Under the pieces are notes generated by a model. That model had not been told where the DNA came from and searched no databases. It saw only the letters and a program-made list of their open reading frames with translations. The position numbers and the translations under genes were made by a program. A stretch of DNA of 64,000 nucleotides from Ascidia mentula (Eukaryota > Chordata > Ascidiacea > Phlebobranchia > Ascidiidae), in the NCBI GenBank assembly GCA_947561715.1, contig OX387204.1, positions 15,133,001-15,197,000 of the forward strand, given 5' to 3'. This document shows positions 7,401-63,739 of the stretch, in pieces; the first letter of the stretch is position 1; each line of letters begins with the position of its first letter.

Positions 7401-10400
7401 CACTGGATAACCGACGGGAAATTCCGACCGTTTTTAGAAACGTCGGCCTTTCGGTATTCGTGGGGAATTTACGTGAACTGGGTAAAGTGTAGCCCTGGGT
7501 CAAGAATGTCTTAGTTCGAAAATATATCCAAACACATGAGAAATGCCTTGAGGGAACCGTTTGCGCAAATATAACAAACAGTGGTTCCTAACTACACGAT
7601 ATTGTGCAGGCGTCGCCGAACTGTAGTCGCAGGTCCATAATTTTGTTTATATCTATTGTGATACTGAAATTAGGAGTCATTGTTTTAAAATGCTCCGAAC
7701 AAGGCGACCATTTTTGTAAAAGTGATCTTGTTTTGAATGGGTTATATCCGCCTCTTGATCGCGAATGCTTACCTATATATGGTCCTTTATGAAAAACGTT
7801 TGGCGGCCTTAGATGTGGCAAAAACGGAAAAACTGCGTCTCGCGAAAAGCATGCGGTTCAAATGTTTTTTGGGATCTACAGCTCAATAGCAATGTACTTT
7901 TAACTGAAATTAATAGCTTTGATTCGCTGTTCGATAAACAACACTTAGAACAAATCTGTCTCACAAATTTGGTATATCGTAAGTGCGGTGAATCTTTTGT
8001 TAAGTTTGGGAACAAAACTTCCGGCCAATTAACTATGCTCACAATAGTTAGAATTCGACAAAACAATTATATTTAAATGCGTCATGCTAACAACATAACG
8101 AAATTCGGGTTCCATGACTTTCACGAAGTGTTTTGAAGCACGACGGTCGTTTAAGATGTTGGTACACACTTCGAGGACGCGCTCCCCTGATGTGTCATAA
8201 CGGGCTTTATGACGTGGGGTCAAATATTTGTCACAAGGGCGGATATTGTTGTGAAGTTGTTTTCCGCTGCATTTAAGACCCCCATAAAAAAGTCGGAAAA
8301 GTACCCGGGCGTTTCTGTAGGGGTTCGTATTGGTATGAGGTTCTAGAAACCCCCAAGTTTCAGGGGGTTGGGTTTTATTCATCTTAGATAAGCGTGTTTG
8401 GGCCGAACAGGAATTAATGAAGAACGACTTATGTACTTTTTACGATCTTGGTGGAAATGTTAGTGATATCAAGAATGTCTTTTTGTAACGTTCGCTAACA
8501 TAACGTTTTTACAACTGACTTAACCTGTTTTTAGTGTACCACATAGAGGGTGAAAGTTTATGCCTAACCATAACGACGAGAACTAAAGGCATTTCATTAA
8601 GTCCGCCGCGTGTTTTGCACGATCTCACGTTTCGTCACACGCTTCATCGACTCTCAATGTTAAACTGGGCGTTTCCTGAAAAAGAGTATTTGCACAAAAA
8701 ACTTGCGTGCAGTTTTCTGTCACGCACTATAGTCTCCAGCTAACTTTTTTAAGGGTTCGAATGCTCAAACGGTTGCAGCAAAAGGAAATGTTGTGCGAAA
8801 GCGAATACCGCGAAATACGTTTTATTATCAAAATAAATTAATGTGACCTTGTGGATCGTGTTGCCAAAATAGTTCAGGTCAGGTTTTCAATGCTACGTTG
8901 AGGATTGTTGGGATAAATCGGTTTTATATTGTAGGAGGATTCGGTTTTGTATTGTGGATAGGATTCGGTTTGTATTGTGGAGAGGATTCGGTTTGTATTG
9001 TGCGAGGGTTCGGTTTGTATTTTGGGAGGATTCGGTTTGTATTATGAGAGGATTCGGTTTGTGTATTGTTGTTGCAAATGCGCATACAGAGGAATTCTCT
9101 TGAAATCCTATACTTTTATTCAATCGAAATGCCGAAATTTCGCCCTTTAACTTTATTGTTTTATCTTTAGAAAGCCCGGGGACAGTACGTCCTGAGGGTC
9201 TTTAAGGGGCGACTTTTTCTTTGGATATCGCGATCTGTTGATATTTTCCCGTCTAAATTCAAATTTGTCCCAAACTTTTGAGTGTTTGTCCGGCCAAAAA
9301 TATGTTTTTACCCCACGGGGTTTCGAAATCCGGGATATCCTATCCACGAACCGGAACAGGTTTTCTTTTTGGTATAAAGATTAAGCGTTTGGACTGAAAT
9401 TGTCAATCGCCATGAATTGTTTTTGTTCCGTCAGTTTTAGTTTGGTCCCGTTCTCCCTTGTGGTCATACTTATTGCGATGTACCAACCACGAGATGTCGC
9501 TACGCATTTGTTAGGAGCAGGCAGCTGCTTGACCCGTATACCAAGCAAAAACCTGATCGGGATTCGTGCCCAGGAAATCCTGGGTTCAAACCCAGGTGTG
9601 GTAAAAAAAAACTACTTGCAACAACGGTCAAGGCGCCTGGCCCAAGTTTCAAGAAGACTAAATCGTGATTCATAACCAAGAATTTATATTTAAAGTTGAA
9701 TATCAAAAACAAGACAGCTTACTTGTATTGGCGAGCATTCGGTAATATTGGTTAAGGCGTCAATTTAAATGGAGCGATCATCTGCGATCATCTGAAGGGC
9801 TTAACTGCTCAAAAGCGGTCATTGTGTGTCTAAGTTTAGCACAGAATGGAACTTCGACCACAACAGGGGCTGCAAGATACCCCATCGTGCGCGCAGCGGT
9901 GTTAAGATCGTAAATAATTGTGCTCCTGTCAGTCGGCTATTGATCGCGGTTTTACACAACCACTCGTTTGTTGGTGCAAAGGAAGGGGGGTCAGACTCGC
10001 TTGAAGGTCAGAAAGAAGAAGAAGAAAGGGCTTTTATGCGGTGTAAGAGGCAACGCGGCGACCTTTGAGTCGTTAGGATGTTTATATCGAGCTTGGGTAA
10101 TCAGATTGTGATGTTTTTCTCAAACCCTGGATTACGTGAAACCAATCAAAGACGTGATAAACAAGGTTGCCTGTAAGCTGACTGCTCCTGCTGGTCCTTT
10201 TTTCACAGGCATTGAAACTCCCGACTGCTTAAATTTTCCAGACTAACGCATCTTAAAGTGTTTAGCATTGAGAACAGCGCAAGAGTAAAACGTTGCAGTG
10301 TGAGGTCGAGTTGTATGCATTAAACGAGCATAACTTATCGCTAATGTTTAAGTCAGTGAGATCTGTGGTATTGGGAATGGCAACAAAATGTCATTTGCGT

Positions 10401-16400: not shown

Positions 16401-17546
16401 ACGGAATTTGAAGCCAATGGATTTGAACGGAACTTCAGGTGACATTCATCACCTGTATTATTGTGTCTTGGCCTCTTTGGCCCATTTTAACTATATAAAA
16501 AACAAAGTTTTACACTGAGGAAATATTTCTTATTTAAACCAATTTTGCCTTATGGATCAGTGTTTCTCAACTGCATGTTTGGGATTATTTTTTTTTCCGG
16601 TTCCTAAAAAGATATTCTTTTCGTATTAGTTCGATTTCTTGTGGTAGGAAGTGCATAGTTTTGCCTCATTAGGTTTTGATTTTTTCACGTTCATTATAGT
16701 TTTGATTTTGTAAGATCACCGCCAACCACAAGTAAAAAACATTTTTAGGAACCACTTCCTTAGATTACACCTTTACCGCCGCAGTACTGACATGCGTGAT
16801 CCTTAAATTCCCCCTTTGAACGCAGATCCATACGTAAAGATATGGCTCATGTACCGCGGGAAAAGGGTGGAGAAGAAGAAAACGGCGGTAATAAAAAATA
16901 CTTTGAATCCTGACTTTACGGAGGAGTTTACCTTCGCGGCCCCCATGGATCGACTGCGTGACATCCAAATGGAGATTACAGTCATGGATCATGATGCGAT
17001 TGGGAGAAACGACACGATAGGAAAGGTATGGAAATACAATCATTCTAGAAACGTTCTTTACCACCCTAAACATGTTGTGGAATTACTCGTTCTCGTTGAA
17101 AAGTATCATTATTGCACTTTGACGTAGCATTGGTATTTGCCGCTTTTTTAGCGTGGGCTATTTTTTAGGTTAGAGCAGTGATTCTTTACTCTTTTTCTTG
17201 TCGGCAGTTATTTGAAATTAACAAACAGTTTACGCACCCCATGATATAGTAGTATGTATGCAATCTACCCAATAGGGTTGAATGTAGTCATTTGGAAAAA
17301 AATTATTATGACTACGCACACCTTCAAAACAGATGTTTCAGCCCTGGTTAAGAAATCCTTGGTTTGAGGAATTCATAGACCTACTAACCTGCCCGATTGC
17401 TCGCCGACTGCCTGTTATCCTAACATATTTGTCCACTGTAGATTTATCTTGGCCACAAAAGTTCTGGACTGGAAAAACTGCATTGGAAAGAAATGCTCAC
17501 CAATGCAAGGCGCCCAGTCTCCCAGTGGCATCTTCTCAAAGTCTGA
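4469..17546 (+). CDS. SYT7: Synaptotagmin-7 (5' end not found)
   Basis: Vesicle or lysosome membrane Ca2+ sensor for exocytosis. Exons: 4469-4572, 12264-12448, 12622-12802, 13688-13783, 14130-14277, 16028-16194, 16324-16438, 16826-17025 and 17442-17546, all GT-AG and phase-consistent. The first encodes a transmembrane segment rich in V, I, T and C; the next two a linker; then C2A (13688-16194) and C2B (16324-17546). C2A shows SGTSDPFVK and [15 protein letters not shown]2B shows [18 protein letters not shown] and [11 protein letters not shown], so all five Ca2+-ligating aspartates of each C2 domain look intact. The end, [11 protein letters not shown], matches the synaptotagmin-7 C-terminus. 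About 432 residues are visible, close to the short-linker form of the family. The missing piece is the luminal N-terminus. The subtype call rests on remembered vertebrate SYT7 motifs and is firm. Confidence 0.95.
4573..12263 (+). other. Large first visible intron of synaptotagmin-7
   Basis: A 7.7-kb intron that starts with a strong donor (gtaagtg) after the transmembrane exon. Vertebrate SYT7 uses this region for alternatively spliced linker exons. Several open frames of 70-130 codons occur here (for example 5111-5497), but none has convincing splice sites or protein-like composition. It holds the minisatellite at 8911-9075. Confidence 0.6.
8911..9075. repeat. Minisatellite, about seven units of 21-25 bp
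   Basis: Tandem copies built around GGATTCGGTTTGTATTGTG recur at roughly 21-25-bp spacing, with single-base changes and small length differences; the outermost copies are more diverged. It lies in the first visible synaptotagmin-7 intron. The array is probably length-variable. Confidence 0.85.
13943..13965. repeat. (TA)n microsatellite
   Basis: An uninterrupted TA dinucleotide run of about 11 repeats, in the synaptotagmin-7 intron after the first C2A exon. Confidence 0.9.
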
Positions 17547-19627: not shown

Positions 19628-22388
19628 TCACAAAATCGCTGTTTTTTGTGAGGCCTTCTGACAATTAGGGCAGCTCATAGTGTCCAGAATTCCCTGTTCG
19701 GCAACGCATCTAAAAACAGTTAAAATCTTGCTTTTTGTCTTTTCCTGTTTACGCGTTTTTCGGGTTATTGTGGTGTTAGTATGGACACATTCTCTTTGAG
19801 ATTTTACGTATATTGTTAATTAGCAAACACAATAAAAAAAATATAGTGCTGGAATTTAGTACGTGTACTTATTTTAAAACCTTTATTTTAAAACAAGCCA
19901 TTGTTTGTCATCCAACAACACAGATGTCCAATGGGAAATATGTAAATTACGAAAAAACTTTACTTTAGTCTTCAATGCAACCTATAGAAATATTACAATA
20001 AAACCTAAGTTTTATAACTCACTTCAAATGGAAGAGGTGAGCGCAGGGCAGTGCCTGCAGTAATTCGTGCTTTTCTCCTATTGGCTCAGAGCAGACCCCG
20101 CAGAAGAGCCCCAAAACTTCCATCATTCTGTGGTAACTAAGTGTGCTGCTCCTGGCGCGTTCCTGGTCAGACATTCGCTGGTACAAAACCGCCAGTTCAC
20201 CTCGGATGCGCATGGACACCATCTAGCGGAAAAAAATTCATACGTCTTGTGCACGACATTAATCATGGTGGCGGACCTTGTGGCATGTTTGGTCAAAAAT
20301 AATAACGTGGAAATAACGCTTTCTACTTAACATATCATGTGTGAAGTGTGAAACCCAAATTGTGGGACAAACCTCGTCTTACATCGTTATGTTGTCATAT
20401 CTCTTTCGATTTCTTTTAATTGTTTTATTGTTGACGGTTACCTTGCATCCTATATGATCGGCCAACTCCAACCCCGACGAGTATTGTTGAAGAGCCTGTG
20501 GAGGATGGTGGTAAGAAATAATTAAGCAAAGAAAAAACATTCTAAGACTTTTAACGTCAGCAAATAAAATGATGTTAACAACATCTAAAATACATTCAAT
20601 CAACAAGCAAACAAAACAGTTAAACCTGCTGGAAGTCTTTGCTCCTGATCAAAGCTTTGGCCTTTCCAATTGCTACCAGCACTTGTCCGTACCTATGTCC
20701 CGTCTCCACCATGAGGCCAAGGGCGGCATCATAACGTGGTAGCGATCTGTCCGCATCTTTCCTGACTCTGTGCACGTCGGCGAAGTTCAACATACAGTAA
20801 GCCTGAGCTAGGCGGTTTTTCTCATCCAACGCAACTTGCATCACGTCCTAATTGGAAACATGAAAGGTGTTAAACCTGTCGCAGCTAAAAGGGCGATAAT
20901 ACCAGCTTGCTGTACTCTTATACACAACTTCAATATTTTGCAGTTCTAATGCATACATATATCATTGTGTTAGTGCACTCCGTACATATACCCAATGGTA
21001 AAGCATTGCATGTTCTATCGAATCTAGCCAACCAAGAATGCATAGCAGCACTGCATAGGCCTTTATACTTGACGATTCTATCTATTATATATATATATGT
21101 ATTATTCCAGTTTGGTTAACGGTTTTCAGTTCTTTTGCGATTTATTCTGCTGCCACAGGATTTATCACAAACCTCAAATATTCTCATCGCTTCTTCGAGC
21201 TTTCCTACTTTTCTGTACGCAGCCGCCAAGCTAAGTTGTGTTGTGATCGAGTAACTCTTGTTCCATTCCCTACCATGTTCAGCCAGAAGCTCCGCAGCTT
21301 TTGTGGGGAAAAATGTTGCCTATTGACAAAATAGGAAGAAAATCATTGGAAGACATTAACAACGGTTTACAACTCGGAAGATTTAATACAACCAAAAAAA
21401 TATGTGTGTTTTCAACTTTAATCCTACGATATTTGGCTTTTTCGGTTGAACCGAGATGTTGTTCCCTCAACAAATTAGTTTTACTTGATCTGCTAACGCG
21501 TGACAGCTATATACAAAAATACTACCTTTTCATAATCCTTGACTTCCAAGTAAAAAGCTCCCATAGCGCAACAAGCCAAGCATTCCAAAGCCCTGTTTTC
21601 ATAGGAATGAGCCATGCTGAGTGACTTTTCAAGGCTTTCCATCGCCATTTTGAGATTACAAATTCCAAGGTGACCTTGACCTCGAATCAGGTAAGCATGT
21701 CCGCAGATTAATATGCTTTCGTTTGATCCGCCACGTATGGATCCGATGAGATCAAGGCATTTTTGCGTGTAGTCGCAAGCTTTTGCAAAGTTGGACAACA
21801 TGAGGTTTCCCCTTGGAAAAAAAATAAACGTCTTTAAACTGAAGGTTGTGATAATGTTTTAGCACTCAACCATCAATAATAAAAGCAATATTGCATGTAT
21901 CGCGAGACATAACCCCTAACTGGTCTACAAAGTTGGTGGAATGTAATATACGGGTATAGATGTCTGGCTTAACAGGCCACACCAGTCATTTACACTAAAA
22001 AGTGCAAAAAATTATACCTTGCTAGGCTGAGATACGAATCTGCCAGCAACACCACACAGCTCGAAGAGTCCGCAATTCCGTGTTTAACTGCTCCAATCGC
22101 ATTTGCCAACTCAATTTGCCGAACAGCAAAAGCCACCACCATGCGGTACTTCCCCCATGTTGAAAGTATGCGGATGGCCAATCCGACGCATTCCCACTTT
22201 GCAAGCGGCGTTTTGTATTTCCGTTTGATGGCGCTTTCGAACGCGTCACAAGCCTCTCCCTCGCTTGGCTGTTCAACGAGTTGCCGTAGCAAACGTTCTA
22301 TTTGCTTGTGAGCGTTTGCGTGCTCACCTGACGAACCGTTGTGGGAACAACCTAACGCGAATGAGTCTGTTGTCTGGTTTTGTCCCAT
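19628..22388 (-). CDS. RAPSN: Rapsyn (43-kDa receptor-associated protein of the synapse)
   Basis: Cytoplasmic scaffold that clusters nicotinic acetylcholine receptors. Exons read from the right: 22388-22018, 21811-21526, 21319-21173, 20847-20626, 20495-20442, 20222-20023 and 19709-19628; together 1362 nt, 453 residues plus stop. The start MGQNQTT is chosen because family members begin MGQ and are N-myristoylated on Gly2; an in-frame upstream ATG exists at 22418. Residues about 50-360 are helical tetratricopeptide-type repeats with family landmarks such as KDYEKATFFPTKAAELL and RLAQAYCMLNFADVHR. A RING-H2 finger follows, with ligands C401, C404, C420, H422, H425, C428, C440 and C443. At 453 residues it is longer than the roughly 412 of vertebrate rapsyn, partly through an extended N-terminal segment. 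It ends TAIL. It is tail-to-tail with synaptotagmin-7. Confidence 0.95.
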
Positions 22389-25300
22389 CTTGATTTGAAT
22401 AAGCCACACACTTTCCAAATACCTTTGTTGAAACGATCAAGTCAGTTTTGCTGATGGCGCTGAAATCTCCAATCTATAGAATTGGAGTTGAAATTACTAG
22501 CAAACATATGTAGTAAAATTAATACCTGAAAAATATTGAGGGGCATATAAATTTAATTTTCAATATATATAGAAAAATATACAAGTAGTGGGTCGCAACA
22601 CATTTGCCACCAACAAATACAATAACTTTCGCCACAGTTACACCTATGGTATTGTTTGAACAGATTATGTAAACAACAAAACGTAACAAAACCAGACAAC
22701 AATACAACCCTGGAATGCAACGTAAACTGTTAAAATCGCGACCAAGACAATAGTTACGGCGAAAACGAATGACAAGTATTGCCTCAATTAAGTTACAACA
22801 AACGAAAAGCCATAAACTTTTCTTAAACCTTTAGTGTGGTTAAACAGAACAAGCCTGTTTTCCACGACTTCGAAATTTAAAAATACTTCTGCCTGTATTC
22901 TGTACCGTTGCCTCTATCTTCTAAAAAGCGCCTACATATTAACACCGCTACAGCAATCACAAGAAAACATTGTTACACTTCTTTTGGCAACTACCCACCA
23001 TTTCACAAACAACTACGTTGGTTAAAACTTCAAAGGAACCGCCGTAAGTACGTCTGTCACTGCCTCTTCACCTCGAAAGGAAGCTCGTTGACAAATGATA
23101 ACGTGTGAATTGCTTCCATTAAGCCTTTTGCTCAGTGGTCTATAACCTCTAAGTGACCTTGTTGCACTTTACCAACCAATCCATACTGTTTCAGTCAGTG
23201 ATTGCCAACCATACACCAAGACGTTGTGTAAGGGGTTTTTCTTTCTGCAACATTAACTTTAGCATGTTAAAAGACTTTCGACTCGTTTTTTGGCAAAAAC
23301 GGGTAAGACATATTCGAATATCATCACGATTTTGAGCCTTTAAAAATTTGGCAAATGTACATTGACGTAGTTGGTTTTCCGATTGTTGCGTAGACAAAGC
23401 AAGTTTTCGTTTCACTGATCGATTTTTCGATGTTAGAATGCTAAAACCTCATTATAAAGTGATTTTGCGAAGGGTATCGTCGCCATTGTATAAATTATTT
23501 CAACATTGTAGATAACCTTTCCTGTACAAACTATAGACGCAGTTTCACATTGTTAATAGCAATAACATTTATTTAGTAGGCAGAGATAGTTGAAAACCAA
23601 AAATATCGAACCACCAGACACATTTCAAAAACCATAGATAACTGTTCATATTTCAACACTACATACATCACAAAGCTTGCGGCTGAACAAGATCAAACCC
23701 AGGCGCTGATTAGCTGGGGATGCAAGTCTCCTTGGAATTCCCACGAGACGTGACGATAGCCAGGGGAAAAACGCGAGTTCGCACTGGGTTAACTTGTAGT
23801 GCGACGCGGCATAATTAAATGTATGTTGAATTACTCGTGAAAATTCGACCACAGATTTACACATGAATCGGTCATGGTTACATGTAGCAAAGTACGTATT
23901 CGCGAAATAAATTTTGACTATACATGCGCAGCGCTTGTCTGACCTTACATGTATTTTTGTACTTTAACGGATTTTTGTTTTTTTTGATAAACAAGAACCG
24001 ATTTTAGTTTTGCTGCTTTCTGTTAATTTATTGTTTGATCCCTTGTACCTTGGTTTTGTTGTTTTAGGTTTCGTCCTATTGAAGGGTACAAGGGAGATAA
24101 CAATTAAAAAAATTAAGTGTCGAAAATTGGGGCATTTGCTCCCAAGTCACTCGACTACGCTTCAAATACGCGTATAATCTGGCTGATGGAATACATAAAC
24201 AAAGCGCCTGGACAGCAAGTTACCATCAGGATCTAAAAATTTTGTAGTCTCACTAATTTTGAAAATGTCCTGAGTATACAAACACGTGTATTGTGGTTCC
24301 AGAAAGACAGAATTCACATGTTTGAAAACAAGCAGAGTGGATCAGCAACTTCGTTCATTTAGCCTGGCATAAGCTATGCGGTGGCAAGTTGAATTACTCT
24401 CGAGCACCTTTTCTCATCACTCAAGACGTCAGAGCGGGCTGATGACGCCAAACTAACATTCGGAGCGTTTTTTCTTTGCATAATATGACGGAGGGCGAAC
24501 CCCGTTCAAACAGTTGCTTTTCAATTCTTATGTGTCAATTCTGATAGGTAATAATACCTTTGTTATGAAAACACTTCCTGGCCCACCAACTTGCAAAGGC
24601 CGATAGTAATTCGTTTACTGTGTGAAACACCAATTGCTGCACAACACATAAATCAAAACAATTGCACATGAAAAAAAGTTGAAGCAAAGTCGGACGATGT
24701 TTTTTCACGAAGCTTTCACCAATTTTGTTCATACTTTTCAAGTATCGTAAGTTTTTATATGATAAAACAGTCGGACTTATGTAACTTTCGGCAAACAAAT
24801 GATAAGCGTGTTTAACAGAGTCCACAACCACTTGTTAATTTGTAGGCGCGCTTTGCTAAGGAAAAGCAAACAAAGTGACAAAATACTTATCGGGAACTCG
24901 AACAAAACACGGAGGTTATTCGACCGCGTGAAAAGGTTCCCAACAGGCGAGAAAGTAGAAATTACAATAAAAATAGGCACCAGGTTTTATGATACGTCTT
25001 GGTTCTCACAGAAATTGGACATTAGTAATTGCATCCCGCAAAGGTTTGTATTCTTTCAAACTGGGTAAATACGAAAAAACTTCGCCTAATTCGTACAAAG
25101 TTTGAGGTACAAATGATCCGAAATGTTTCTCTCATTATCTTCGCAATTTAGGATAAAAGTTGCTCTTTTTACACCCCTAAAGTGCACAAAGTGATCGGAA
25201 ACCATTTCGTTCGGGGTAACCTTTTTTCATAAAGAGGCCCCCAAAATTGTCTCCCGGAAATATATCTCAAAAATAATTCAATACATTGAGAAACGCGGTT

Positions 25301-26084: not shown

Positions 26085-27964
26085 ATGTTATTTTCTACTT
26101 CTGTGGTTTGCTTGTGTGCCGCAATCCTTGGGTGTAAAGCTGATCGGTTATCAGGTGCTGATTCACTTTCTATCAATCAAAAAGCATTGGAAGGAAATTA
26201 CCCATATTGTCAATGTCCATACTATGATTAAGCTCTGACTCAACTTCAACAACAAATTGATGCGTTAAAAGGTTTGGGCAATATGTTAAAAACTAGTTAC
26301 TTTTGGAAAACCGTTTAAGTTGGGATTACTGCAAAGGGTCTACAGAAACGTGCTTTCATACCAATATCAGCAGAAACTAAACGTTAAAAGTTTAAATCAT
26401 AGTCAGTCACCTAATTTAATTGTGTAGAGCTTCATAAGAACACATCGTGTGGTGACATTTGGTCAAGTGGGGCAACTGAAAGTGGAATTTACACGATTTT
26501 TCCTTTTCACGATTGCAGCAAGTCGTTTGAAGTATACTGCGACTTTACTGAAGACCTACCGGGATGGATTGTAAGAAAAGTGAACTATTATGTAGAGTCT
26601 ACATTGTAGACTATCTACGGTCAAAATAAAAAAATACTTGTCGGCCGCAAGATCGTTTGACTGCACTTATTAAACCACACAGATTGCTCAGCCTAACGAC
26701 GGCCCTCGGTGCCTGATTGGCTTCAGGGCCCAGCATATAATTCAGGAAAAATATTTTTGGTAAACCTGTGACAAATTTGAAGTTTATCATCAAATTATAA
26801 AATGGGCTGTATGAGTCTTTCGTCTACAAATTATGCTGGTTTGCACTCTATAAGAAGACTGACTTGTATTTTCTACAATACACAATATTTCGCGAGCACC
26901 TCTCGCTTCATCAGGTGTTTATACATGCGAAAGCTTGTGTACTTTCGAATACAAATTTCAGTCTTCTTAAAACAGTGCCAAACCAGGATAATTCAGTTTA
27001 TTATCGTTTGCATTTATATGAAGACTTTTCAACGACGTATGGATGGATCCTTGTACTTTTACTTGTATTGGGATGATTACGTCAATGGATTCGGTGACAT
27101 GAACACAGAATTTTGGCTGGGTAAGTGTAGACATGCAAAAACAACATTTAAAAACCATGACTTGCGAATTGGATTTTGACAGGTTTGGAAACTCTTCACC
27201 AGATTACATCTGAAAAGAATTACGAGTTACGCGTAGACATGGAAGATTTTGAGGGAGAAACAAGATACGCAAAGTACAGGTAATAACAACAAATATGCTT
27301 CATACTTATAACTGGTTTACATTCATATAACTACTGTCACCTTTGTTGTTTTAGCACTTTTAAAGTAGGTGCAGGACCTGGGTACCGCCTCGAGGTTTCT
27401 GGTTACTCCGGCGATGCAGGTTCGTTTTGAGCATTTAATGGCATATTAGTTCCCAAAAAATATTTCCACCTGTTCAGTGATACAGATTAAATTTTACGTG
27501 TTTCGAACAACATATTTATATGTTGTCAACAAGCAAACAAAAAACATTTTTGAAACAAATTTTCACATAATAACTCTTAATTGGCATTGTAATTTTGTCA
27601 GTAGCAAAATCTCGTTGTCATTAATATGTACTTCGTCTACTAGTTGGCATCGTTGGATCCTACAAGCATAAGTTTTGAGTTGAATAATACGATTTTCGTA
27701 TGTACAGGAGATGCGATGTACTTCCATGATGGTATGAAGTTCAGCACAAGAGATGTTAAACAGGACGAAGGAGGTGAGGAAAATTGTGCCCAAGTGTACC
27801 AAGGGGCCTGGTGGTACAAGAAATGCCACAGGACAAATCCAAATGGATTGTATCTGGGAGGGGAACACATCTCGCATGCTGACGGAGTTGAGTGGACTCC
27901 ATGGCACGGTTACAAATACTCTCTGAAGAGAATTGAGTTTAAGATTCGACCGAGGCTCTGCTAA
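26085..27964 (+). CDS. Secreted fibrinogen-related (ficolin-like) protein
   Basis: Fibrinogen C-terminal (FReD) lectin, probably secreted and involved in innate recognition or cell adhesion. Exons: first exon from ATG 26085 to 26271, then 26428-26570, 27024-27120, 27183-27279, 27355-27419 and 27708-27964. It opens with a signal peptide (MLFSTSVVCLCAAILGC), then a short heptad-like stretch (LTQLQQQIDALK), then the FReD from SCGDIWSSG through QRRMDGS, TEFWLG, HDG-MKFSTRD, GAWWYKKCH and NGLYLGG to the final Cys. An in-frame TAA at 26229-26231 interrupts the first exon; removing a 78-nt intron (26155-26232) keeps the frame and gives 255 residues. The usual DxD calcium site reads DVK. A possible AATAAA is at 28473. 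The family call is firm, the orthologue unknown. Confidence 0.9.
26843..26978. repeat. Foldback element, copy 2, with hammerhead-like core on the minus strand
   Basis: Lies in the intron before the 27024 exon. Ends are inverted repeats (gcactctataagaagactga on the left, tcagtcttcttaaaacagtgc reversed on the right). Read on the minus strand, it shares the order CACCTGAYGAARCGAGAG ... TCGCGAAA ... AAGTCAGTCTT with the copy at 2750-2963, so the two belong to one family. The minus strand shows CTGATGA (26914-26908), a perfect 5-bp stem GCGAG/CTCGC with a 5-nt loop, then GAAA (26891-26888). Confidence 0.7.
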
Positions 27965-29178: not shown

Positions 29179-31084
29179 TTAAACTTCCTCAGATAGGAGC
29201 TTAGATTTGCTTTCTTGGTATTCTTGAAGTTTTTCCTCAAGATTTGCAACTTCAAACAGGAGCTGGCATGCCACAATATGGGGTGGAATGTGATTCGGGT
29301 CAGATATTTCCAACAAAAAATCTGGTGGCTTTACTCCCATCTTTTGAAACCTTTTTAATATCTCCTGTGGTGCAGCGTACATCTAAAACACACAACAGCA
29401 TATTTGGTTTTTAATACTTACAGTTTAAATCTTATAATGTAGTCAGAGGTTTGCAAATTAGTGATGCAGAATAATATATTCCTACAGCAAATATTTTATT
29501 TTCTCTCACAAAAAACTTTAGTGAGTATAAGCATTGGGGACATCACAATGGTGTTAATAACGTGCACTACATTAAGCTGGTGTTGAAGGTAATTAAATGC
29601 CAAAACTACAGAGTTTCAAAAACTAAATTTAACAAAAGTTTGTCAGTTAGATTTAAGCTACAGCATTTACAGTATTTTCCTATCAAAGTTTAATGGTTTA
29701 AAGACAAAAAACAGACAACTTTCTTTACCTTGTCACCAATGATACTTGGAAATGCATGAAACCTCTCTGGGTGGTGATTCAGGTAGTGTCTCAATAGGGA
29801 TTGCTTGTCTTCAGTGATTTCCACATCCAAAGATTTTACCAACACTTGTGTCATGTCAAAGGTCTGTTCTGATTTACTTACACAATCAATCTAAAATTAC
29901 ATCCAATTTTTATTATGTTCGTGATAAGCACAGTGGTGGTGAATGTTACCTGAGTTTTAAGCAATACATCATTTGCTTGTGTTAAAGTCTTTTCAAAATA
30001 TGCTTCTTCATCTTTCATTCCTGCAATATGCATGCATTAGGATTAAGTTAAACATGGTGCACTTGCACATATTACCAGAAAACACTTGACTTTCATTTAC
30101 CTGTTACTTTCCCAAGCAAGTGAGAAAGAACCCAACAAGCATGTGTTAAACCTGTAGCTTCGATAAATGTGCAAACATGATAGAAAAAGTACATTACACG
30201 AAGGTTAAGAAAGTGAACTGGATATTTGGCTGCAACAATTTGTGGCATTAGCTGACCGACAATTACAACTAGGATGCATGTAAGAAATCCTGTTTCCAAA
30301 AGACTGGCCTACAAAAACAGTTTAATCATAGTCAGCATCTATATTTTGTTGTAGTATTTTGCTTCTTCTTACATAGAGCCATGATGGGACCGGAAAGAAA
30401 AAGTCTTTGTCCAAATTTTGCAGTGTGATTGTAGTGAGTTTGGCAATGAAAAACACTAGAAATACAACAAGAACCTAAAAAGTGGTGAAAAGGGCATAAA
30501 GTCACATAACTTTTGATAGAAAGGCATTTTTAAAAGCACGTTTTGTTTCTTACCTGTCGACCCATCAGAAATCGTTCCACATTGTCCTTGGAATTGGCAA
30601 TTTGAGCCAACGCATATGACCGTGTATGTGTGTTTTTGTATGAATCTGGGTGTTGCCGTTTCAACTCCACCAATGATATCTGAAGTCCTGAATGGCATAA
30701 ACACAATTGATATCAAAATATAAACAAAATTATATTTAACAGGCAGTTAAGGCAAAGAAAAAAACACACAATTAAATGAGAAATACATAAACTGCACATA
30801 AAAATACGTTACTAGTAATAGTAGTAGTAGAATAGCCAAATCAAATCAATTAAAAAGTCAAAACTCATATGCTTTTTAAACTGTACTTTACCTTCCACGA
30901 TTCCAAGCAATATTAGGCACAACACAAACAGTGCTAATGCAGCCGGTCCAGGTACCGTTTTCCAAAACACTGTGTCTCCATTAACTATTGCATATACAGT
31001 TACAATTGCAGAAAACGCCAGCAAAGCAAAACTTATTCCGTAGCGCAAATAGTCCCACACGGTGGAGTCCCTAAGTTCGACCAT
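29179..31084 (-). CDS. Silicon-transporter-like (SIT-L) five-helix membrane protein
   Basis: Predicted plasma or vesicle membrane transporter of the silicon transporter family. Exons from the right: 31084-30892, 30687-30554, 30474-30373, 30308-30101, 30020-29950, 29890-29729 and 29382-29179; 1074 nt, 357 residues, all GT-AG and in phase. Hydrophobic segments at about 16-34, 48-63, 110-130, 147-168 and 180-205 give five helices. EGLQ at 64-67 closes helix 2 and GRQ at 107-109 opens helix 3, inside NVERFLMGRQ; these are the paired EGxQ and GRQ motifs of diatom SITs. The full SIT has ten helices with the motif pair twice; one five-helix unit matches SIT-L proteins. The C-terminal third is soluble and ends in a charged, coiled-coil-like helix (NLEEKLQEYQESKSKLLSEE). 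The substrate is inferred from family only. Confidence 0.85.
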
Positions 31085-59500: not shown

Positions 59501-62500
59501 GGCCGCTGTTAAAGGCCACCGCTTGTTTTCCTTCGAATAGAATCTGTTTACCTATACCCGTTCGTTTGAAGCGCTCTCTGCTGGGCTTAGCCAAGGACAA
59601 TTATCGGCTTTGCGTGGGATTTCCAAACAACATATACGTCGTTTCGTTCGATGACTATTTTCGTCACTGAATAACATTCGTTTGTTTGCTTGATAGCGAA
59701 AATAATCTCCTGTTTGCTTCTACTTTGAGGCAAAACATATCATATTTAGTTCAACGTGATTGGACACTAAATTCGAGACGTTTTCCTCACACCCAGAACC
59801 CATTATCACACAGTGAAAACATTTCCCGGTAGTTGTAAACAGTTTTTGTGGTTCATATGCAGGGAGCTCTGGAAACCATTCCAGAACAGGATTTATATTT
59901 GGACCTCGATTCAACTGGCGGTGAGTATCCGGCGATAGTGACGTCATAAACGCCAGATTGTTTCCTCTGTCCATTGTTGCGTGACAGTTGCACTGTGCCC
60001 TGTTGCAGGTTCTGATGCTACGCGTCCAACAGTTAATGCTGTTGACAACCTGAAATTAGACGACTCGGCAATGGGTGGAAAATTATCCAATCCCAAGCTG
60101 CTGGGTGGACGAAAAGAGAAAAAGGTTTGTTTTTCTTTTAAGTTCGTCGTTTCTTTTCCAGGTAACAAACCATTTCATTGCTTGCATGTGGTTTAACTCG
60201 ATGCCTGTCAGTTTTGTTTTAAAGAGATTTTTCAAGCTTAACCATCTTCATATTAAAACAAAAACCCGTTCGTACTTTTTTACACCTCTTTGTATGATTT
60301 TCCATGTATGTATATTAGTTCAATAAACAATAATCTCCACTATATATACAGTTGCATTGCACTAACAGCGCCAAATATCACCATGCAACATCATGCAAAA
60401 GTTGTTTTGTTACATTGCAATGAAAATGTTGCTATGGATTTCCTCCTTATATCATAGGAGCAAACCCACCCAGAGCAGAGGCGCGTCGGTCAGTCGACCG
60501 TGGTAAAATTGCGCAAACCTCCTTCAGAAGGCAGGCGAAGTCCTGCTGCGAGACCCATATCAATGCCCATCTCACCTCCCCCAGAACCTCCCGGCACCGT
60601 AAATTCCAACAAAACAGGCAAGTCGAACACACGTTTGTGATTTTTGTTTTTGTCAAGTTTGTGTTCACATTTAAAGCACAGTGAGTTTTCAACTGAATAA
60701 CAATATAATGTTGTACTTTGTTTTTCTTGGTTTATTTGAGCAAAGAAACATTTTATAAACGAAACATTTTCTGTTTAGAAGGTGGCGTGATTACCTTCAG
60801 CTGTTGACGTAATTTAAACCTTTATGACTTACTTACGGAAGTGTTTGATAATGCTGTCTATTACGTCACGAAACAGACTGGCAAGTTACTCTAGACTTGG
60901 TTACGTAACAAAATTAAACCCGTCTCACCGCAACAGCACAATCATTCAACGATTTAGCAGGGTTGAGTAAACGACTGACGCACTTTTTATCATTGGTTTG
61001 TGGTATTGTTAGGACTCAATAAATGCACTGATTGCTTTCGTGGTTGCCCTAATACATCAAACAAAAGCGAGTCTTATAAAAGCCATGCCGACATATGACC
61101 TTGTTGTTTCAAATTAGCTCCTCTTGTTGTTGGATCCTAGTCAAACCGCATCATGTCACGAGCTTACCAACATAAACACATTTGAAAGCCGAGAACCATC
61201 TTTTTTAGCATTATCAACAATACATTGATTGTTTGTATAACAAGCGGTCTAATCCCTTGCCCAACCACAGGTGCACGCCCGCTGCCACCGCCCCCTTTAA
61301 TGCAGACCGACGATCAGGATTCAAGCAAAAACGATCATTCTTCGGCGAGTAGGCAGTCATCGATGCCACAAGACCCTCCACCCCTGCCGCCAACCAACAT
61401 TCCTAAACTGTCGTCACCTTTATCGCCTGCATTGACTCAGTCCAACATCCGCGGGTCAACGTCACCGACAAAGCGACCAATATCGGCTGAAACTCTTCCG
61501 CCACTCCCCCCCACTGGTCAAAGACGGCCGTCTTCCGCCAGTGGTCCTCCACCGTTACCACCAGTATCAGGAAAAAGGCCTCTGAATGATTTTCTTCCCG
61601 ACCTCCCTCCTCCTCAACCACCAGTCTCCTCCCAATCATCTCACCGTCCTATTTCTGGAGGATTCGATACTACCAATCGACTTTCATCGAAACCACCTCC
61701 GATTTTAGATGATATACCAGATCTTCCCCCTCCGCCCCCACCTCCGACTTTCCCACAAAGGAACAGTGCCTCGGAACCAAATCTTCCTTCATCAGTCCCC
61801 CTTGTCATGCCAGTAGGAAGGCCGTCACTTGTTTCTCCTCCTCTGCCCACAGATCCTCCACACTTGCATCTCCTTATTTCCAAGAAGCCTCCGCCCGTCC
61901 CACCCTTGTCTGGTCCTCCAGGAATCCCTTCCTCGCCACAGGATGTCTCTCCAGATACCCCGCCACCTCCGTTGCCTAGAAACGCTGAATCTTACGCCCC
62001 GCGTCTCCCTTATCGGCCTTCTTCGCCGTTTTTGAAGTCGGCACCTGGTTACACCGAAACTCCTCCTGATACTCCAAAGCGCGAGGCAGATTTGTCTGAA
62101 GTCCCGTTGAGAATTCCCTCCGGTGAAATGAGCGTCCACCCAGTGGCCAATCTAATAAAACAGATGAAAAAACAAAACATTGACATAAAACCCAAGAAAC
62201 GAGTCGACGCAGACAAGAAACCAAGGCCAGCTAAAAAACCTCTTCCCAGTCCACCTTTAAAGCATCACAAACCGGAAATATTCCCTGTAGTTGCAGTCAA
62301 GCCGAAGCCGCCAAGTGTTCCCAACAAACCGGTTATTCGCAAACCAGTTGGTTCCCCTTCCGAAACTGCGAACACAGAGGTAGCGTCCGCAACGACAGCG
62401 AAGTATTCGAGATCATCCACGTTACCGAAGGGCGGTGTTAGTTCACCACCCGTTGCAAATTCCCCCACCTTACCGCGGAACTTGGTCACGTCGCGAAAAC

Positions 62501-63739
62501 TTCCACAACCAACTGCACCGACCGCAACATACGGTGGGGGACCTGCCTCCGGGTGCGTGGAAGACGATGGCGTTTACAGCGCCATCGACGAGTCAAGTGT
62601 TACGTCACACACCCCAATTCAAACTCCCCCCGAGCTCCCGACCAACCCCCCGCCCTCGTTACCGGAGGAGAGCTCCCATGTCAGTGGAAAGATTGTTCTT
62701 CCTTCGGCTTCCGCGTCATTTTCGAGTCCCAACTCACAAGGAATCAACCCTCGCCCTCCCACAACCATGAGGTCTCCCAGAATGAAACCAAAACCCCGAC
62801 CCACAGCCCCACCACCTCCAAGACCTAACATGACGCATCCATCACTCCCACAAGATGAAAAAGGTGTGTGCAGAATAATGTATCTTGCATTGCCCGTGCT
62901 TAAAAACGTGAATCAGAATTGTAAAGCAAGTGAGCTGCCGACGGGGCCACTGTTTCGTAAAATTGTAAAAAATTGGATGCTTATGACAGTGGTTCCCAAC
63001 CGGGGGCGTGGCACCCTAGGGCGCCATTTATAACCTCGATCAGATGGCAGATATATGGCCGTATTTTCAGAATTACGCCCTAATCAGTATTAATGAGGTT
63101 GGTTAAAATATGTGCTGGTGAAACGGGAAAAAACAACACGTGTCTGTTGTTGTGCTCAATGTATCTACCTGCAACGTAATGTAATTTAGCTGTATGAAAA
63201 GTTTATTATTCCAATCATGCTATTGCTTTATATATACAAAATATATTACCTTGACTCGACTGCAACACAATTGAGCTTGAGGTAGATTTCGGAATATATA
63301 CATTAAATGTTGTTACAATTGAGCTTGAATTACAGATATAGCAAAACTGTTTTTTTTCCTTGCAATTGTTAGCATAGAAATGTCCCTCATGGAATAGCAT
63401 CTGTGCTAAAATCATGACTAACATACAATGTATTGGGTACAGAATGCCCTGATTTGAATCAGTGTTTTTTGCTTAAGCGGATGTGTTTATTCATCTCATA
63501 GTGGAAAATATATATTTTGTACCAAGCTGGCATCACAACTTGGAAACTTTAGAATACACCGAATAGTGTGTGGGCTGGTTTTGTTGTTGTGCATAGACCT
63601 GTCATAATCTAGGCGTGGGCCCATCTAATTAGCTCTGAAACCATATTTCAACAGTAAACAAAAAGCCTGCACCCGCCCGGCCTCCGCCCCCATCGAAGAA
63701 AAACATCCAAGCTGCCGAACAAAGAAAAGTGGCCTGCAA
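47545..63739 (+). CDS. Proline-rich tyrosine-motif adaptor or scaffold (3' end not certain)
   Basis: Unnamed cytoplasmic adaptor. Exons: 47545-47943, 50699-50868, 59298-59364, 59863-59920, 60009-60124, 60458-60617, 61271-62863 and 63655-63739; about 882 codons, all junctions in phase. The start MQSSGLSLQSRIKALK is the first ATG of its open exon. Residues about 325-854 (exon 7) are dominated by SH3/EVH1-type proline motifs (PPPLPP, LPPLPP, PPPPPPP). Tyrosines in possible SH2-docking contexts: Y43 (TVYMSP), Y131 (ECEYVE), Y185 (SEYDSF), Y224 (DLYLDL) and about Y758 (DGVYSAID). The intron at 60618 has a GC donor. Exon 3 could instead end at about 59451. After 63739 the frame is unclear: one reading ends in TAA near 63924, another continues off the edge. 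No catalytic domain is visible; WIP-, FYB- or Cbl-tail-like scaffolds are possible relatives. Confidence 0.8.
57049..57163. repeat. 37-bp inverted repeat with 41-nt loop
   Basis: 57049-57085 and 57127-57163 are reverse complements with about three mismatches (core TAGCGCGATTGTTACGA). The loop repeats GATTGTTACG. It could be a short foldback element or a small-RNA hairpin. It lies in the large adaptor intron. Confidence 0.75.
57270..57307. repeat. Perfect 15-bp palindrome
   Basis: AATGTTGCTTAAGCA (57270-57284) and its exact reverse complement (57293-57307) are separated by 8 bp. It lies about 100 bp right of the 37-bp inverted repeat and may belong to the same insertion. Confidence 0.8.
62987..63030 (+). 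mobile_element. hAT terminal inverted repeat, one end only
   Basis: CAGTGGTTCCCAACCGGGGG followed by a GGCACCC...GGGCGCC palindrome is typical of a hAT element end. It lies in the adaptor intron 123 bp after the exon-7 donor. I find no matching right end before 64000, so the element is truncated or its other end has decayed. Confidence 0.5.

Follow-up and report, generated by a model that had tools for sequence, protein, structure and literature searches.

Does a chordate genome carry a silicon transporter, and if it does, how is the protein built and what does it move? The question is raised by a gene of the tunicate Ascidia mentula, at 29179-31084 of a 64,000-nucleotide stretch of DNA (GenBank assembly GCA_947561715.1, contig OX387204.1, positions 15,133,001 to 15,197,000; hereafter the window, whose coordinates are used for this gene and its neighbours). 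An earlier description made from the letters alone, here called the sequence-only reading, had noticed this gene as silicon-transporter-like. Judged from sequence profiles, its product is almost certainly a member of the silicon transporter-like (SIT-L) family, and its membrane domain appears to be homologous to the DUF21 domain of the CNNM/CorC Mg2+ transporters. As a gene, it adds one more case to the animal SIT-Ls already reported; the CNNM relationship, less expected than the SIT-L gene, adds interest to a gene of known type. Silicon transporters (SITs) supply diatom silicification, and if the CNNM/CorC fold is truly shared, solved structures could serve as templates for them. The tunicate gene also offers a chordate case for asking about the role of silicon in animals. 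Papers are cited below by PMC number, and what is said of them holds for the parts of each paper that were available.

A single-unit silicon transporter homologue in a tunicate

The SIT-L gene lies on the minus strand and has seven exons, with GT-AG borders at all six introns; the spliced frame of 1074 nt encodes 357 amino acids plus the stop codon. The gene model of the sequence-only reading was recovered intact, and so were its motif positions: EGLQ at residues 64-67, GRQ at 107-109 and the wider block NVERFLMGRQ at 100-109. That reading had staked its proposal on a hidden Markov model search, which returned a strong match rather than none: the protein hit the silicon transporter Pfam family PF03842 with an E-value of 3.2e-40 and 138.4 bits (cut-off 26.8). 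The match to TIGR00811 (E 9.7e-31) scored 106.7 bits, far under the cut-off of 1047.6 of this full-length model. The protein aligned with either half of these two-unit profiles, best with positions 3-159 of 513 in PF03842 and 221-439 of 548 in TIGR00811.

A full SIT with ten transmembrane helices carries two EGXQ-GRQ pairs per chain. Here a single pair was found in 357 residues, in keeping with the single-unit architecture proposed before; SIT-Ls are defined by one EGXQ-GRQ pair and five transmembrane domains (TMDs) (PMC5100055). The xQxxxQx motif of TMD4 was also present, and its two glutamines (Q162 and Q166) were found in all four SIT-Ls that we compared throughout, namely those of the tunicate, of Rhodococcus opacus, and of two bacterial metagenome-assembled genomes (MAGs), L017 and L018. 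Where the sequence-only reading had announced a silicon transporter in an animal genome, the single-unit homologue in an apparent animal gene stands, but its novelty does not: SIT-Ls were reported in 2016 in tunicates, copepods and polychaetes (PMC5100055), so the animal host is not new.

Sequence and fold similarity to CNNM/CorC

Besides PF03842, the only Pfam family that the tunicate protein matched above the family's own cut-off was CNNM (PF01595, DUF21; E 2.6e-9, 37.4 bits; curated cut-off 28.4), with residues 52-220 aligned on profile positions 2-159 of 181. The Rhodococcus opacus SIT-L matched the same profile under the cut-off (E 5.9e-4, 20 bits). A custom CNNM profile was built from 31 membrane domains (1 tunicate and 30 bacterial) out of 34 loci, leaving out L023, L052 and L056, which failed the seed profile at 1e-5. 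Its scores were 17.2 bits for the tunicate SIT-L, 18.2 for Rhodococcus, 8.3 for L017 and -3.1 for L018. As a control, each protein was shuffled 2000 times within 10-residue blocks. The real score was reached by 0 of 1999 shuffles for the tunicate protein (best 11.6) and 0 of 1998 for Rhodococcus (best 15.8), by 3 of 1999 for L017 and by 1612 of 1991 for L018. From these counts, the CNNM signal is clear in two of the four SIT-Ls, marginal in one and negative in one.

The search was also run in reverse, with a profile of the four SIT-Ls against the 359 open reading frames (ORFs) of the CNNM loci, 37 of which are CNNM by the first profile. Ranks 1 to 13 were all CNNM ORFs (best E 0.0016). The highest score of a non-CNNM ORF was 4.1 bits; among those with at least three hydrophobic segments, 14 were scored and the maximum was 1.2 bits. 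When the SIT-Ls were aligned with a large CNNM alignment, hhalign gave a probability of 87-88% (P ~3e-6), which fell to 3% with five sequences. An NCBIfam scan of the four SIT-Ls returned no match to a CNNM model, and a search of the SIT-L profile against PDB chains by sequence found none; a single solved-structure sequence match at E = 1 was taken as chance. Searched exon by exon against the tunicate genome, PF01595 found two CNNM genes and not the SIT-L exons. In the open-access library searched we found no paper linking silicon transporters or silicic acid to CNNM/DUF21, the papers listed for CorC being two on chemistry, and the modelling study of Knight et al. 2022 may already contain the comparison.

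Structure models, of low confidence, point the same way: CNNM/CorC entries topped the VIA lists of two predicted models, and a CNNM-like fold of SIT-L is probable. Neither LeuT-named nor human CNNM4 entries were among the 50 matches listed per VIA list, which proves nothing about either. The sequence-only reading had described a five-helix protein. Four of its segments are indeed strongly hydrophobic, with best 19-residue Kyte-Doolittle means of 2.16-2.65; the fifth, within residues 176-212, is weak (maximum 1.05) and may be re-entrant as in CorB.

Residue register on the CorB metal site

The register comes from an hhalign comparison with a CNNM alignment whose first sequence is MtCorB. Around the first motif it pairs MtCorB Ser21 with L60, Ser25 with E64 (codon at 30893..30895, minus strand) and Glu28 with Q67. 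Around GRQ (30554..30562, minus), it pairs Thr67 with R108 and Ser71 with V112, R108 thereby aligning with a residue four positions ahead of Ser71. The GQLMPQ segment that holds the TMD4 motif (residues 161-166; 30240..30257, minus) falls on Gly110-Glu111-Ile112-x-Pro114-Lys115, the pi-helical turn of CorB, with Gly110 on G161, Glu111 on Q162, Ile112 on L163, Pro114 on P165 and Lys115 on Q166. A register with E64 on CorB Glu28 was dropped; HMMER and hhalign both give E64-Ser25 and Q67-Glu28.

The Mg2+ ligands of MtCorB are Ser21, Ser25, Ser71 (Asn in bacteria) and Glu111 (PMC8242095). Neither the Glu111-x-x-Pro114 pattern of the pi-helical turn nor these ligands are kept in the tunicate SIT-L: Glu111 is replaced by Q162, and Ser21, Ser25 and Ser71 by L60, E64 and V112. 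The proline is kept as P165. In the CNNM set, Glu111 and Pro114 are invariant in all 30 sequences with a letter there, while the serine positions vary (Ser in 15/30 and in 18/30, and at the third mostly Asn or Ile); because of this variation, the strict difference between SIT-L and CNNM is Glu111 to Gln. In the SIT-L set, Q162, P165, E64, R108 and Q109 occur in 4/4 and Q67 in 3/4. With due caution, EGxQ and the QxxxQ of TMD4 would coincide with the metal site, and GRQ would sit one turn ahead of Ser71. If the CorB alignment is followed, EGLQ and GRQ would share a cavity and both lie at its cytosolic side. No CBS pair was matched in the tunicate SIT-L at E <= 1; a CBS match is present in the tunicate's own CNNM.

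Proposed mechanism

We consider SIT-L most likely to work as a homodimer that couples the transport of undissociated silicic acid to Na+ and has a CNNM/CorC (DUF21) membrane fold, and we put this forward with fairly good confidence. The protein would follow the DUF21-like order: an N-terminal extra helix, TM1, a cytosolic hairpin of short helices, TM2, and TM3 kinked ahead of the conserved proline. The fifth helix would be re-entrant rather than membrane-crossing, leaving both the N and C ends in the cytosol, and two copies would stand in parallel around an alternating-access cavity. The positions of the Mg2+ site would be L60, E64, V112 and Q162, and the acidic metal site would have given way to a glutamine-rich one (Q67, Q109, Q162 and Q166) together with the conserved E64 and R108. 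Such a site would suit neutral Si(OH)4 with Na+. For the tunicate protein, we infer dimer, topology, substrate and coupling from its relatives and from the alignment; by analogy, silicic-acid transport by it is likely. For a coccolithophore SIT-L, transport of silicic acid was measured in oocytes (small n) and in proteoliposomes, where it required Na+, with Km values of 27.4 and 31.8 uM and with monomer and dimer bands; silicic-acid uptake by coccolithophores themselves was below detection (PMC10098502). In the diatom transporter PtSIT1, glutamine mutants of the conserved motifs transport less, and calorimetry showed weaker silicic-acid binding for the ones that it covered. Two mutants were misfolded and are little informative, one of four with a changed glutamine and the one at the glutamate of the second EGxQ (by our own mapping) (PMC4912633).

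The same reading extends, again with good though slightly smaller confidence, to the whole SIT/SIT-L family. This family would be a neofunctionalised branch of CNNM/CorC DUF21 proteins, its motifs a remodelled Mg2+ site and its fifth TMD a re-entrant juxtamembrane helix. A ten-helix SIT would consist of two parallel tandem units without inversion, both motif pairs facing the same side. Each unit would cross the membrane an even number of times, and pairing would fall to the membrane helices; an inverted arrangement of ten helices would become doubtful. Inverted and parallel architectures thus become directly testable against each other.

Alternative explanations

SITs have been described as 5+5 inverted repeats and likened to the LeuT fold, and SIT-Ls have been suggested to be homodimers (PMC4742977, PMC10098502). 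On that published picture, the tunicate protein would have five crossing helices and form a homodimer of inverted symmetry, and its resemblance to CNNM would be convergence or chance. The inverted repeat was proposed in PMC4742977, and PMC5100055 places the second motif pair at the extracellular face. Several of our own results also weigh against a CNNM-like fold: the L017 and L018 SIT-Ls were recognised by PF03842 and not by PF01595 (E <= 10), L018 gave no CNNM signal by any sequence profile, plain Foldseek E-values were weak, and the structure models were of low confidence. Weak Foldseek values and low predicted local distance difference test (pLDDT) scores in particular favour the LeuT-like picture. 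On the other hand, five crossing helices sit badly with a fifth segment as weakly hydrophobic as this one, and chance sits badly with CNNM being the sole other Pfam family above its cut-off. The place of CNNM entries at the top of both VIA lists, the concordant reciprocal profile search and the register of SIT-L on the CorB Mg2+ site all speak against an inverted repeat. We regard the published picture as quite unlikely.

With the CNNM-like fold retained, the tunicate protein might instead move another substrate, for example a divalent cation like CNNM, or a different neutral hydroxy acid of small size, boric acid being one. We saw no assay of a metazoan SIT-L in the parts of the literature consulted, and the C-terminal region holds no Pfam domain above its cut-off, both of which leave room for this idea. 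A cation is hard to reconcile with the replacement of the Mg2+ ligand Glu111, invariant in CNNMs, by glutamine in every SIT-L compared. More generally, EGLQ, GRQ and the QxxxQ of TMD4 are all intact, and a related SIT-L moves silicic acid (PMC10098502), so that another substrate seems unlikely. An algal source, by contamination or by recent transfer from a diatom or another alga, would fit the facts that SITs are best known in algae and that SIT-Ls occur in several protist groups. It hardly deserves credence, however: the gene has seven exons, sits in a 19.66-Mb contig and has animal neighbours, and the single-unit form was undetected in diatom transcriptomes and found in tunicates (PMC5100055). 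With rapsyn-like, C2 and fibrinogen-like exons nearby, it looks like an animal nuclear gene.

Gene structure and genomic setting

All exons are on the minus strand. Exon 1 (30892..31084; residues 1-65, ending on the first base of codon 65) encodes the putative N-terminal extra helix (8-34) and the larger part of TM1. It ends within EGLQ with the donor GTAAAG and is also backed by the PF03842 and PF01595 matches of the Pfam scan. Intron 1 interrupts the G65 codon inside EGLQ. Exon 2 (30554..30687; 65-109) carries the remainder of EGLQ, the predicted cytosolic loop and NVERFLMGRQ, and its 3' boundary falls immediately after GRQ. The rest of TM2 (98-133) is in exon 3 (30373..30474; 110-143), and exon 4 (30101..30308; 144-213) holds TM3 with GQLMPQ, followed at about 180-194 by the weak fifth helix. 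The C-terminal region begins in exon 5 (29950..30020; 213-236) and continues through exon 6 (29729..29890; 237-290), which shows no Pfam domain above its cut-off, to exon 7 (29179..29382; 291-357 and stop).

For residues 209-357 as a whole, no Pfam domain above cut-off was found; two sub-threshold matches were taken as chance. In the scan of the whole protein, a match to Sre, a G-protein-coupled receptor family (0.093), was dismissed as hydrophobic chance. The sequence-only reading had placed a coiled coil at the C terminus, as a part that could drive dimerisation. In a heptad register from residue 328, 7 of 9 a/d positions are hydrophobic, but pLDDT in the model over this stretch (about 328-356), averaged over ten residues at a time, is 28 to 51; a short coiled coil is possible, not established.

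The assembly searched has 195.8 Mb in 79 contigs. PF03842 (E <= 0.001) matched it in three places, all three in exons of the SIT-L gene, and the SIT-L protein (E <= 1) matched it in seven, all seven its own exons. A second copy was not found; the gene is single-copy as far as these searches, which score the best candidates only, show. PF03600, used to look for Lsi2-like genes, gave 28 candidate matches in the genome. The mitochondrial COX1, translated with table 13, gives an open stretch of 539 residues with 18 AGA/AGG codons, two of which precede the likely start. Glycine, the meaning of AGR in tunicate mitochondria, suits the conserved glycines of motifs such as GGFGNWL, TGWTVYPPL, GGGGDP and VPTGVKVF, which makes a tunicate host very probable.

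Of the 20 window ORFs scanned, four matched Pfam at E <= 0.01. Pieces of a rapsyn-like gene lie about 7 kb from SIT-L on the same strand (21493-22436, minus), with a Rapsyn_N match at 21990-22436 (4.8e-6) and a TPR match beside it, below its own cut-off. A C2 domain exon (16807-17127, plus; E 6.1e-18) belongs to what we take to be possibly a synaptotagmin-like gene, and the C-terminal exon of a fibrinogen-related protein lies at 27644-27964 (plus; fibrinogen C domain, E 1.5e-26). Further off are a very proline-rich open frame of 615 amino acids (61186-63033, plus), with no Pfam match at 0.01, and a tandem repeat of 22 bp in 6.4 copies (8918-9062). Rfam and tRNA scans of the window found no Rfam element and no tRNA.

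Comparison with known systems

Bacterial relatives are few. A genome-contig scan yielded 2 from 234 pattern matches, and PF03842 occurred in 1/396 and 1/398 genomes of two sampled phyla, each being the MAG L017 or L018 already found. In a plasmid tblastn search, pKNR of Rhodococcus opacus was the sole match; the L018 core found no plasmid at E <= 1, and two viral-contig scans (single protein; A3) found no viral relatives. The bacterial SIT-Ls (Rhodococcus opacus pKNR, WP_012691913.1; L017, a Pseudomonadales MAG; L018, a Thermoanaerobaculia MAG) share 25-32% core identity with the tunicate protein and have the motifs EGxQ or EAAH, GRQ and QxxPQ, while their C-terminal regions align poorly with it. 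Those of L017 (2902-3903) and L018 (2596-4098) have canonical EGxQ/GRQ and, in their long C-terminal regions, no Pfam domain above cut-off. Eight SIT-Ls, some in heterotrophic bacteria, are reported from GTDB (PMC12016540); they may include L017 and L018. On pKNR of R. opacus B4, the SIT-L is annotated as hypothetical; its region (99000-111160) holds a run with radical SAM, PEP/pyruvate-binding, adenylyl/cytidylyltransferase and ABC transporter genes, which may form a pathway centred on this homologue of silicon transporters. A 'SySIT-L' of Synechococcus PCC 7002 is aquaporin-like in the results and diatom-SIT-like in the discussion of PMC12506029; the name may refer there to another family, and owing to these conflicting descriptions the protein was left out of the functional evidence.

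Closest by description are the metazoan Group 1 SIT-Ls (tunicates, Capitella, Platynereis and Calanus; PMC5100055), which share with the Ascidia protein one EGXQ-GRQ pair, half-SIT length, the QxxxQ of TMD4 and an animal host. A short Halocynthia roretzi SIT-L sequence is named in the methods of that paper. Tunicates are listed there with minor EGXQ variants, whereas EGLQ of Ascidia mentula is canonical; in this comparison by description only, the Ascidia gene differs in being complete, with seven exons and a long C-terminal region. CbSITL of the haptophyte Coccolithus braarudii (PMC10098502), likewise set beside the tunicate protein by description, is a single-unit SIT-L with measured Na+-dependent silicic-acid transport. 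Diatom SITs (PF03842/TIGR00811; PtSIT1, PMC4912633) have EGxQ and GRQ in each half as in the tunicate protein, but are predicted to have ten helices and carry two motif pairs per chain. From CNNM/CorB/CorC (MtCorB 7M1T/7M1U; TpCorC 7CFF/7CFG), SIT-L differs in that no CBS pair was found, that Glu111 and the other Mg2+ ligands are replaced, and in its extra N-terminal helix and its C-terminal region; what the two would share is TM1, the short-helix hairpin, TM2, the TM3 kink before the proline and, after these, one more helix, which in CorB is re-entrant.
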